The notes under the pieces were generated by a model. It worked only from the letters and a program-made list of their open reading frames with translations, had not been told where the DNA came from and did not search any database. DNA of 64,000 bases from Xanthomonas rydalmerensis. Lineage in GTDB: Bacteria > Pseudomonadota > Gammaproteobacteria > Xanthomonadales > Xanthomonadaceae. This document shows, piece after piece, positions 14,765 to 30,605 of the stretch (positions are counted from its first letter, which is position 1; every line of letters starts with the position of its first letter). Both the position numbers and the translations under genes were made by a program. The DNA lies in NCBI RefSeq assembly GCF_033170385.1, contig NZ_CP126170.1, forward strand, positions 451,001-515,000, read 5' to 3'.

Positions 14765-16654
14765 TCACGCCACCCGGCTGCGCCGCGCCCGTTCCAAGTG
14801 CACCAGCAGCAGCGAGATCGCGGCCGGGGTCATGCCGGGGATGCGCTGCGCCTGGCCTACGGTCTGCGGACGCACGCGCTCGAGCTTCTGCTGCACTTCG
14901 GCCGACAGCCCGCGCACCTGCGCGTAGTCGAACGTGGCCGGGATCGGGGTGTCTTCGTGGCGCTGCTGGCGCGCGATCTCTTCGCGCTGGCGGTCCAGGT
15001 AGCCGGCGTACTTGATGCCGATCTCCACCTGCTCGGCCACCTGCGTATCGGCCACGCCCGGGCCCAGCGACGGCACCCGCATCAGCGCGGCGTAGTCCAG
15101 CTCCGGGCGCTTGATCAGGTCCAGCACATTGGTTTCGCGGCTCACCGCCACGCCCAGCGTGGCCGCGACCTCGCGGCCCAGCGCGTTGCCCGGCGTGGCC
15201 CACAGCGCGCGCAGGCGCTCATTCTCGCGTGCCACCGCCTCCTGCTTGGCCTGGAAGCGCGCCCAGCGCGTTGCATCGACGATGCCCAGGTCGTGGCCGA
15301 TCCCGGTCAGGCGCGCGTCGGCGTTGTCCTCGCGCAACTGCAGCCGGTACTCGGCGCGGCTGGTGAACATGCGGTACGGCTCGCTGGTGCCGTGGGTGAT
15401 CAGGTCGTCGATCAGCACACCGATGTAGGCCTGGTCGCGGCGCGGCGACCACGGCTCCAGCCCGCGCACCTGGCGCGCGGCGTTGAGGCCGGCGATCAGG
15501 CCCTGCGCGGCGGCTTCCTCGTAGCCGGTGGTGCCGTTGATCTGCCCGGCGAAGAACAGCCCGGGCATGGCCTTGGTCTCCAGCGAGGCCTTGAGCCCGC
15601 GCGGGTCGAAGAAGTCGTATTCGATGGCGTAGCCGGGGCGGGTGATGTGGGCGCGCTCGAAGCCGCGGATCGAGCGCACCAGCTCCAGCTGCACGTCGAA
15701 CGGCAGCGAGGTGGAGATGCCGTTGGGGTAGATCTCGACCACGTCCAGGCCTTCCGGCTCGACGAAGATCTGGTGGCTGGCCTTTTCGGCGAAGCGCACC
15801 ACCTTGTCCTCGATCGAGGGGCAGTAGCGCGGGCCGATGCCCTCGATCTGCCCGGTGTACAGCGGCGAGCGGTCCAGCGCGCCGCGGATGATGGCGTGGG
15901 TGCGCTCGGTGGTGTGGGTGATCCAGCACGAGACCTGGCGCGGATGCTGGGCGACCTCGCCCAGGAAGGACATCACCGGCAGCGGATCGTCGCCGGGCTG
16001 TTCCTCCATCGCCGTGTAGTCCAGGCTGCGCCCGTCGATGCGCGGCGGGGTGCCGGTCTTGAGCCGGTCCACGCCGAAGCGGCCATCGCGCAGCGCCTGC
16101 GCCAGCGCGGTGGCCGGCGGATCGCCGGCGCGGCCGCCGGCGTACTGGGTCTGGCCGATGTGGATCTTGCCGGCCAGGAAGGTGCCGGCGGTCAGCACCA
16201 CCGCCGCGGCCTCGAAGCGCAGCCCGGTCTGGGTCAGCACGCCGCGCACGCGCTCGCCGTCCATCACCAGGTCGTCCACCGCGGCCTGGAACAGGGTCAG
16301 GTTCGGCTGCGCCTCGACCAGGCGCCGGATCGCGCTGCGGTACAGGTTGCGGTCGGCCTGGCAGCGGGTCGCGCGCACCGCCGGGCCCTTGGAGGCGTTG
16401 AGGGTGCGCCACTGGATGCCGGCCAGGTCCGCGGCCTGGGCCATCGCCCCGCCCAGCGCGTCGATCTCCTTGACCAGGTGGCCCTTGCCGATGCCGCCGA
16501 TGGCCGGGTTGCAGCTCATCGCCCCCACCGTTTCCACGTTGTGGGTCAGCAGCAGGGTGCGCGCGCCGGCACGCGCGGACGCCAGCGCCGCCTCGGTGCC
16601 GGCATGGCCGCCGCCGATCACGATCACGTCATAGCGGTAGAAGGAGTCGCTCAT
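14765..16654 (-). CDS. mnmG: tRNA uridine-5-carboxymethylaminomethyl modification enzyme MnmG (GidA)
   Basis: FAD enzyme of 629 aa that, with MnmE, installs the cmnm5 group on the wobble uridine of tRNAs reading two-codon boxes. It begins with the dinucleotide-binding loop [12 protein letters not shown] (about 12-23), followed by [20 protein letters not shown], the diagnostic MnmG block with its Cys. Other family segments visible are [40 protein letters not shown] and the tail region with [16 protein letters not shown]. Full length. It is the last gene before the repeat region and probably transcribed alone. Confidence 0.97.
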
Positions 16655-16769
16655 CGGGGTCTCGTCGGCCGGCGCGGGACCGGCAGCAGGGGGCCGCAGG
16701 CGGGATCGCCCAGGGCGGGAACAGGAATTTTAGCGGTTGCATCACAAATTGCAGATCCGGGCCTCAAGT

Positions 16770-16785
16770 TGGCACGCAATCTGCA
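16770..16785 (+). promoter_or_regulatory. Sigma-54-type (-24/-12) promoter
   Basis: TGGCACGCAATCTGCA matches the RpoN consensus (TGGCACG, four bases, TTGCA) with a single change. The GG (16771-16772) and GC (16783-16784) doublets are ten bases apart, the strict spacing for sigma-54. Transcription would start near 16796 and run toward the terminator at 16878-16911. An activator site was not identified; a pair of TTGCA elements lies just upstream (16748-16752 is one). Confidence 0.6.
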
Positions 16786-16795
16786 GATATTCCCA

Positions 16796-16911
16796 CTGCA
16801 CCCAACGTGGCAATGCGTCAGGGGCGTATGACTGGAATTGGAACAGGGGCCAGTCACGCGCACGTTGGGGGAGCTGGGGGCCGGTAGTCGGGGGACTACC
16901 GGCCCTTTTTT
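16796..16911 (+). ncRNA. Candidate small RNA (~116 nt) from a sigma-54-type promoter
   Basis: The stretch between the -24/-12 element and a strong terminator has no credible gene; the only ATG frame is 24 codons and ends inside the terminator stem. It contains a first stem-loop TGACTGG/CCAGTCA (16829-16856) whose loop shows GGA, a G-rich linker, and the terminator hairpin. Four GGA triplets are present, which could contact an RsmA/CsrA protein. The start is estimated from the promoter; the 5' end may be off by a few bases. I do not match it to a named RNA family. Confidence 0.5.
16878..16911 (+). terminator. Strong Rho-independent terminator
   Basis: GGGCCGGTAGTC (16878-16889), loop GGGG, GACTACCGGCCC (16894-16905), then six T (16906-16911). 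The 12-base stem is perfect. It ends plus-strand transcription from the candidate RNA promoter; no plus-strand gene precedes it. Confidence 0.9.
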
Positions 16912-16967
16912 ATGCCCGTCTTTCGCGCATCGCCGGCGCCGCGCCAGCAACGGCAAGGCCCCAACGC

Positions 16968-16995
16968 GAAAAGCCCCGGCGAACCGGGGCTTTTC
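16968..16995. terminator. Bidirectional terminator hairpin
   Basis: GAAAAGCCCCGG (16968-16979), loop CGAA, CCGGGGCTTTTC (16984-16995). The arms are perfect and carry A4/T4 at their bases, so the hairpin can work on both strands. On the minus strand it serves the lipoprotein gene at 17164-17685; on the plus strand it backs up the RNA terminator. The sequence 16996-17163 beyond it shows nothing recognisable. Confidence 0.8.
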
Positions 16996-17163
16996 GTTGT
17001 GAGGCGCCGACGCCCGACAGGGCCGGAACAGGGGGGATCCAGATTTCCCTGTCGGACATCGACATAGACGGTGGGGTCGACCCCTTCGGGTCATAAAGCG
17101 ACGCAGACGGTCACCCCGTAGGACGTAGAGTGCGTGCTGGGACAGGCGAACGCAAGCCCTTTC

Positions 17164-17685
17164 TCAGGGTTCGAGTGTGCGACGTGTCCCATTGCTGCGA
17201 CCCATATTGCCGGGGCGCGGCGCCGGCGGACGCTGCATGCCTTCCGGACGCTGCATCGCTGGCCGCGCCGGCTGCATGGACTGCGGCCGCGGCGCCGAAT
17301 TCAGCGCGTCCGGACGGCGCAGGCGATCCATGTCGCGCCAGGGCGAGGGCACCCGACCGCCCACGCTGGGCGGCGGCGGAGGCGGGCGCGAACCGCCGTC
17401 GTCCGGCCGCGGACGCGGTGGCGGGCGGTGACGCGGGCCGTCGTAGCCACGGTAGTAGTAATACGGCACGCCATACCCGTAGTAGCCGTAGTACGCCGGG
17501 CCGTAGCCGTAGTAGGGCACCGCACCGTAGGGCGAGTAGTACTCGGAGTAACCGGCCGGATAGCGGTATTCGACCGAGGGGGCGCCACGGTAGTAGCCAC
17601 CGTCGCCGCCTCCGGCGTAATCGTAGGTGGCGCAGCCGCCCAGTGCGGCCAGCAGTCCAGCGGCGCAGATCAGGCGCAGTTTCAT
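17164..17685 (-). CDS. Tyr/Gly/Pro-rich outer-membrane lipoprotein of unknown function
   Basis: The 173-aa product starts with a lipoprotein signal (LICAAGLLAALGGC, Cys at 18), followed by a Tyr/Gly-rich segment with many YYGYG repeats (about 20-80) and a Pro/Arg-rich tail with MQRPEGMQRPP-type repeats. The start at 17685 has GGAGGG upstream and is the only one that begins the signal peptide. There is no catalytic motif, and the composition suggests a surface or structural protein with disorder. It runs toward the bidirectional terminator at 16968-16995. I do not recognise a named family. Confidence 0.78.
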   Translation of the reverse strand: MKLRLICAAGLLAALGGCATYDYAGGGDGGYYRGAPSVEYRYPAGYSEYYSPYGAVPYYGYGPAYYGYYGYGVPYYYYRGYDGPRHRPPPRPRPDDGGSRPPPPPPSVGGRVPSPWRDMDRLRRPDALNSAPRPQSMQPARPAMQRPEGMQRPPAPRPGNMGRSNGTRRTLEP

Positions 17686-30528: not shown

Positions 30529-30605
30529 GCGCCCGTAGCTCAGCCGGATAGAGTAGTGGCTTCCGAAGCCATTGGTCGGGGGTTCGAATCCCTCCGGGCG
30601 CGCCA
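30529..30605 (+). tRNA. tRNA-Arg (anticodon CCG)
   Basis: A 77-base tRNA with encoded CCA. Acceptor arms GCGCCCG (30529-30535) and CGGGCGC (30595-30601) pair fully, then discriminator G and CCA (30603-30605). The anticodon loop TTCCGAA closed by TGGC/GCCA gives anticodon CCG, which reads CGG. The T arm contains GGTTCGAATCC. It would suit integrative elements as an insertion target, but no integrase or duplicated 3' end was seen nearby. Confidence 0.95.

Follow-up and report, generated by a model that had tools for sequence, protein, structure and literature searches.

Small RNAs transcribed from sigma-54 promoters are few, and a locus beside mnmG in Xanthomonas rydalmerensis raises the question of whether such an RNA is encoded there and, if so, on what it would act. 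The window, meaning here the whole stretch of 64,000 nucleotides that was analysed, had been given a preliminary description from its letters alone, in which a candidate sigma-54-dependent small RNA with two hairpins was proposed. The observation behind that proposal is confirmed by the comparisons reported below, and its interpretation is supported by them.

Identity and structure of asX1

A cmscan search against Rfam matched RF02235 (asX1) at 16799-16912 on the plus strand, over the full length of the model (1-115), and scored 117.8 bits where the gathering score is 70 bits. The reading of the stretch as a small RNA is thereby borne out, and since it is a member of RF02235, the RNA is already known and not new. 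It was reportedly first described by Schmidtke et al. in 2012. Detection by RNA-seq has been published for X. campestris (PMC4652430) and detection as 'cellular only' for X. fastidiosa (PMC12189769), and the X. fastidiosa paper also mentions a link to virulence for sX13, asX1 and sRNA-Xcc1 (PMC12189769); the available text of the two papers mentions neither sigma-54 nor a partner for asX1 and gives no mechanism.

Covarying pairs support the assignment together with the score of the covariance model. Two-sided changes were seen in 16 of the 22 consensus pairs among 32 sequences, and the helices of asX1 are thus conserved with covariation. A stem of GACTGG (16830-16835) and CCAGTC (16850-16855) closes a 14-base loop, AATTGGAACAGGGG, and the intrinsic terminator at 16878-16911 on the plus strand is a perfect 12-bp helix of GGGCCGGTAGTC (16878-16889) and GACTACCGGCCC (16894-16905) with GGGG between the arms and T6 at 16906-16911, which the terminator scan finds as well. 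Both hairpins had been placed correctly in the preliminary description, but a count of two was incomplete, as it missed an outer helix of CCCAACGTG (16801-16809) with CACGTTGGG (16861-16869) and a small 5′ hairpin. The four GGA triplets that it counted are there, and its GGA in the loop is found again as part of GGAACAGGG in 120 of 141 genomes; the letters that are conserved are nevertheless CAGGG, present in the loop region of 140 of the 141, and not GGA as such. The longer GAACAGGG is present in 132 of the 141. From this conservation of the loop, GGAACAGGGG at 16840-16849 (plus strand) is proposed as the pairing seed.

GGA motifs can also be read as binding sites by which asX1 sequesters RsmA/CsrA. 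The four triplets and the frequency of GGAACAGGG in the loop would fit such a role, and the same genus offers an example in RsmU of X. campestris, a GGA-bearing sponge RNA which, according to the available text, derives from the 3′ end of an mRNA and whose relation to asX1 is not stated there (PMC7694677). The loop GGA beside CAGGG is however absent from the aligned genomes of genera g25 and g29, which read ACTGAACAGGGG, and family f11 has no GGA before CAGGG while CAGGG itself stays, as counted above; the other GGAs of asX1 lie in or beside helices. An RsmA sponge was set aside because the loop GGA is not kept throughout the genera. We hold this reading to be quite improbable, and less likely than sponging of the C-rich-loop RNA to which the hairpin described below would belong.

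Conservation of the sigma-54 promoter

The -24/-12 element of asX1, TGGCACG-N4-CTGCA, lies at 16770-16785 on the plus strand (TGGCACGCAATCTGCA) with GG at 16771-16772 and GC at 16783-16784, ten bases apart, just as the preliminary description had it. It fits TGGCAYR-N4-YTGCW with a single departure from TTGC, here CTGC. By itself the promoter motif is not beyond chance in 64 kb: one match was found in the window against 0.45 expected, and at least one match was found in 37 of 100 shuffles. What lifts it above chance is that the element is kept in place, being found in front of asX1 at 129 of 130 loci, whereas 15 of the 22,360 control windows from the same loci contain one, so that the promoter read from the letters holds in the relatives. 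The search window for the element was 26 bases long and ended 8 bases before the asX1 5′ end, and the 130 loci were taken from the 148 RF02235 loci with no filter on the promoter pattern, L020 of genome G009 being among the 18 left out. The single locus lacking the element, L145, reads TGGAACG-CTTC-CTGC.

With one genome per genus from 35 genera, TGGCA, the G at column 6 and TGC were invariant or changed in one genus only, and the distance from GC to the asX1 5′ end is 12-15 bases. The 141-locus alignment was anchored on a loose form of the motif and dropped G258, though the element is visible by eye there. A -24/-12 motif expected 0.45 times per window could stand before asX1 unused by sigma-54, with transcription starting from another promoter. 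The position of the element and its conservation at 129 of 130 loci argue strongly against this, as do the absence of a sigma-70 consensus match within 16600-17300 and the presence of rpoN in 24 of the 24 genomes examined, and we consider transcription from another promoter very unlikely indeed. The sigma-54 promoter of asX1 can be regarded as established by comparison. No paper tying asX1 to RpoN or sigma-54 was found in the literature searched.

A conserved hairpin on the opposite strand

A second conserved hairpin, on the strand opposite to asX1, had been missed in the preliminary description. It lies at 16998-17080 on the minus strand, convergent with asX1, and is referred to here as the C-loop hairpin; R1 is the covariance model built from it. 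The loop, GGAUYCCCCCUGUUCC, is almost unchanging and its core GGAT-CCCCC-TGTTCC is invariant (58 and 56 sequences). In the window the near-invariant core, delimited by column conservation, is GGATCCCCCCTGTTCC at 17025-17040 (minus strand), and it is complementary to the loop of asX1. Among 56 sequences 14 of the 17 pairs are changed on both sides and 95.1% of the cells are paired, a level of covariation and pairing that none of 500 shuffles reached. The word GGAACAGGGGGGATCC, which has one copy in the genome, lies about 110 bases past the asX1 terminator and was found downstream of asX1 in 137 of the 141 anchored genomes; in the remaining four (G009, G021, G365 and G409) the hairpin is shown by the model or lies at another position.

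Two observations bear on the strand. On the minus strand the G-U cells number 137 against 29 A-C cells in 58 sequences, with 45 of the 137 coming from one pair, and of 138 genomes 119 give the better fold on the minus strand and 13 on the plus strand. The excess of G-U and the better minus-strand fold together point to the minus strand as the one to which the C-loop RNA probably belongs, which makes its loop C-rich; a hairpin on the asX1 strand was ruled out by the same counts. Thirty hairpins outside the training set showed two-sided changes in 11 of 17 pairs, and 453 of their 510 cells were paired. The raw count in these 30 was 20 G-U against 31 A-C, most of the A-C cells lying in columns that are unpaired in those families, and after removal of three badly paired columns (18/131, 32/118 and 49/104) it was 15 G-U against 1 A-C.

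Past the hairpin, at 16969-16994 on the minus strand, AAAAGCCCCGG and CCGGGGCTTTT may form a palindromic, terminator-like hairpin, which is weak by rule and was missed by the terminator scan requiring five T. Upstream of the C-loop hairpin the conserved columns reveal, by eye, a stretch at 17090-17159 (minus strand) that holds TGAC..GCGTCGC..GAC (17090-17113), a CGCANNCTACG-like word (17124-17134) and CTTGCG (17151-17159). It is possibly the promoter and 5′ end of the C-loop RNA; no sigma-70 consensus match was found for such a promoter in the scan of 16600-17300. In family f1, TGAC-N4-TGCGTCGC-N6-GAC and CTTGCG..GCAAGCTACG were seen to be conserved upstream of the hairpin, corresponding to 17090-17159 (minus strand) in the window. 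A second hairpin upstream of the C-loop hairpin, P1, was tried and rejected, its outer pairs failing while the inner ones hold, with 54 G-U against 40 A-C.

The C-loop hairpin had no Rfam match above the cut-off. RsmX and RsmY were rejected as families for this hairpin downstream of asX1, the weak matches there reflecting the neighbouring terminator-like stem. Nor is the C-loop RNA a member of sX13 (RF02232): within 16940-17260 no sX13 match was found at E up to 5. Both RNAs show a C-rich apical loop of the CCCCU type, and the C-loop RNA would in this resemble the working of sX13, but sX13 has three hairpins whereas the C-loop RNA has one main hairpin, with another sequence and at another place. 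The two also coexist, as sX13 was found in 42 of the 42 genomes examined and these include genomes carrying the C-loop RNA. The 16-base loop core was not found in the literature searched, and the C-loop hairpin is apparently undescribed.

Distribution and gene context of the locus

RF02235 is found in 148 of the 397 genomes of the order, with one match each, and in 34 of 95 genera. R1, which matches this genome at G000:C1:467998-468080 (minus strand, E 6.2e-17), finds the C-loop hairpin in 312 of the 397 genomes and 65 of the 95 genera, with one match per genome except for two in G318; in a class-wide sample it matched 4 of 276, all four in the family to which this genome belongs. Present in 312 genomes and having no Rfam family, the C-loop hairpin is a candidate for a new RNA family. 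Among 80 named mnmG loci the word was found in nine (L175-L183, from Xanthomonas, Stenotrophomonas, Lysobacter, Luteimonas and a Lysobacteraceae bacterium) and was absent from the other 71, some of which have short flanks.

Thirty further loci were picked where RF02235 had not called asX1. In the gap between hairpin and mnmG a -24/-12 site stood on the asX1 strand in 25 of these 30 and on the wrong strand in none. A slightly looser pattern, run on 27 of the loci with the three that were siteless under the stricter pattern left out, raised this to 26 of 30, and all 26 of the RNAs contain CAGGG, which follows the predicted start by about 41-54 nt in 20, lies at about nt 5 in the four genomes of family f11 and is found beyond nt 90 in two. 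The two f2 genomes and G215 showed neither a -24/-12 site nor a complementary match. Upstream of the hairpin, in a region intended as control, 14 of the 30 loci had a -24/-12 site, so such sites are not rare there; 13 of the 14 point away from the hairpin and stand before a small frame. Rfam at its gathering score calls asX1 in one of ten loci scanned, and L140, among those missed, is a sub-threshold RF02235 match. The -24/-12 sites and CAGGG-bearing RNAs at uncalled loci show that loci of the asX1 type reach well beyond RF02235, into families that it does not call.

In the window a lipoprotein-like frame at 17164-17685 (minus strand), rich in Gly, Tyr and Pro and with no Pfam match, faces asX1, and the C-loop hairpin lies past its stop codon on the same strand. 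At 13 loci of families f12 and f3 there is instead a small frame on the strand opposite to the hairpin, behind a -24/-12 site of its own. As the flanking frame differs among loci, no single conserved gene has the C-loop hairpin as its 3′ end. The second -24/-12 site with its small frame and a HHDLLIEIGRIEMAM-like motif was seen 205-361 bases beyond the C-loop on the asX1 strand, at loci L302-L307, L310, L312, L313, L317, L318, L323 and L324 of f12 and f3; a 59-residue piece of the frame had no Pfam match, and the frame is possibly a sigma-54-controlled small protein at the same locus. Elsewhere in the window a tRNA gene was seen at 30529-30602 (plus strand, RF00005, 66.3 bits).

On its other side asX1 is divergent from mnmG (gidA), at 14765-16654 on the minus strand (PF01134, 559.9 bits), which lies downstream of the C-loop hairpin on the strand of the latter. 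Since 23 of the 26 loci inspected have mnmG downstream of the hairpin on its strand, the hairpin could be a cis element of the mnmG leader, an attenuator or antisense target, and asX1 a cis-antisense regulator of mnmG. That asX1 is antisense to the stretch between the hairpin and mnmG fits this, and the name asX1 is said to recall an original classing as antisense. The distance to mnmG varies, however, from 51 to 511 bases, and the terminator-like palindromic hairpin can be seen by eye between the two in the window and in several relatives. In G021, moreover, asX1 is inverted between hairpin (688162-688245, plus strand) and mnmG (from 688525, plus strand), which keep their places; at 688370-688481 on the plus strand it runs in the same direction as both, and an antisense role is therefore impossible there. 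Control of mnmG through its leader is in our judgement unlikely, and an action of asX1 on a separate C-loop RNA is the reading followed here.

Complementarity of the two loops

The asX1 loop AATTGGAACAGGGG has 9-10 bases complementary to the C-loop, centred on GAACAGGG, and in 28 of 34 genera this is the longest stretch shared. For g2 and g40 the comparison returned a longer shared stretch at another place, although their loops carry the motif. Five f1 genomes outside RF02235, and f5, likewise have 9-10 bases (p up to 0.025). At most 6-7 complementary bases were found in the loop in the four f12 genera, and for f12 and f3 the longest complementarity was 6-8 bases, which is not above shuffles (p 0.1-0.8).

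Family f11 differs in that its asX1-type RNA looks like a short seed and a terminator, CAGGG coming already about 5 nt after the predicted start. In G045 and G034 of this family the match lies on the other side of the hairpin loop, where 11 bases are complementary to CAGGGGGAATC, and none of 200 shuffles reached it in either genome; in the other two f11 genomes p was 0.26 and 0.06. The shift of register in f11 is the only change kept on both sides, both loops being otherwise too conserved, and since complementarity is kept through it, it provides the best evidence for selection on the pairing itself.

The G-rich loop of asX1 could also be directed elsewhere, asX1 regulating mRNAs of its own in trans through C-rich sites or serving as a sponge of sX13; the hairpin would then share the motif by way of a common network, and the pair would not chiefly act on each other. 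The CCCC loops of sX13 act on 4G motifs, according to the available text of PMC3771888, asX1 has GGGG in its loop, and sX13 was above the cut-off in 29 of the 42 genomes in which it was found. Duplexes of asX1 with the whole of sX13 reach -12 to -22 kcal/mol, and of the 14 CCCCTGTTCC sites in the genome, against 5 for the reversed-pattern control, two are at the locus and twelve elsewhere. The loops of sX13, on the other hand, match CAGGGG only (about 6 bases, by eye) as against the 9-10 of the C-loop. The duplex of the asX1 loop was more stable with the 22-base core of the C-loop (about -21 kcal/mol) than with the whole of sX13 (about -16) in 22 of 25 genomes; sX13 was lower in three (G221, G020 and G159), in two of which another CAGGG was picked. 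The asX1-type RNA also stays beside the C-loop hairpin in several families, and that of f11 is reduced to a seed matching the local hairpin. A role chiefly on other mRNAs or on sX13 is therefore regarded as doubtful, and the C-loop RNA is retained as the candidate partner of asX1.

Candidate activator of the promoter

No common site for an enhancer-binding protein was found upstream of the -24 element, where columns -30 to -6 hold at most 0.55 bits in 35 genera; in some genera the start of mnmG is, by eye, about 50 bases from the -24 element. In L025-L048 a TCACA-like half site was seen by eye some 45-60 bases ahead of the -24 element of asX1, and in G211 it reads TGTGATGTGAGTCACA; it recalls a CRP/Clp site and may belong to the mnmG promoter.

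The NtrC model had a match above the cut-off in 24 of 25 genomes searched. G311 alone had none: the one match that it has at E up to 1e-40 falls below the cut-off, and the genome keeps asX1 and its promoter; judged from the C-terminus, this enhancer-binding protein is presumably PilR-like. X. fastidiosa is said to have just NtrC and PilR in the available text of PMC3224663, and it also carries asX1 (PMC12189769). Taken together, X. fastidiosa and G311 make PilR the leading candidate, and on this thin, suggestive evidence the activator of asX1 may be PilR.

Discussion

What is established here comprises the RNA family, the conserved promoter, the strand and covariation of the second hairpin, and the complementarity of the loops, and on this ground asX1 is probably a sigma-54-controlled sponge, or target mimic, for the convergent RNA with the C-rich loop, a reading held with moderate confidence. 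We infer that the C-loop RNA is transcribed and has targets, and that it is titrated by pairing with asX1 once an activator is at work. An enhancer-binding protein, with PilR as leading candidate, would activate sigma-54 RNA polymerase and asX1 would be made. The C-loop RNA, a strong hairpin with the C-rich loop CCCCCUGU, would pair with G-rich ribosome-binding sites. asX1 would expose GGAACAGGGG in its open loop for loop-to-loop pairing with CCCCUGUUCC, and repression by the C-loop RNA would be relieved.

That the C-loop RNA probably acts on G-rich ribosome-binding sites is proposed by analogy with sX13, which, according to the available text, represses mRNAs with G-rich (4G) motifs through its C-rich loops with no need of Hfq (PMC3771888). 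In this genome ACAGGGG occurs 46 times at 3-11 bases before ATG against 3 for the reversed pattern, a control that ignores general ribosome-binding sites. Away from the locus GGAACAGGGG occurs at 12 places, a few of which directly precede open frames, which are unannotated, as at 3214954; none of these sites is put forward as a target.

The GlmY/GlmZ system of enterobacteria is under sigma-54 control. In it a small RNA serves as decoy for another small RNA, as the available text of PMC7073468 has it, and this logic is common with the role proposed for asX1; GlmY, however, decoys the protein RapZ, whereas asX1 would act by base pairing and the genes are convergent neighbours. Should asX1 and the C-loop RNA act in the proposed way, they would form a counterpart to the decoy logic of GlmY that relies on base pairing.

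More tentatively, with a chance that we put somewhat short of even, the locus may represent a two-RNA switch throughout the order, in which the C-loop RNA stands beside mnmG with a sigma-54-controlled antidote, asX1 or one of its unrecognised relatives, and in which the antidote of one family has shrunk to seed and terminator. The conservation of the promoter, the wide spread of asX1-type loci and the C-loop hairpin with its loop complementarity were not found in the literature searched. The comparison gives asX1 a promoter, a concrete candidate partner and base pairs to mutate. The order of the candidate RNA family includes many plant-associated bacteria, and if the proposal is true, global control of translation would be tied in this order to an enhancer-binding protein and, should this be PilR, to surface sensing.
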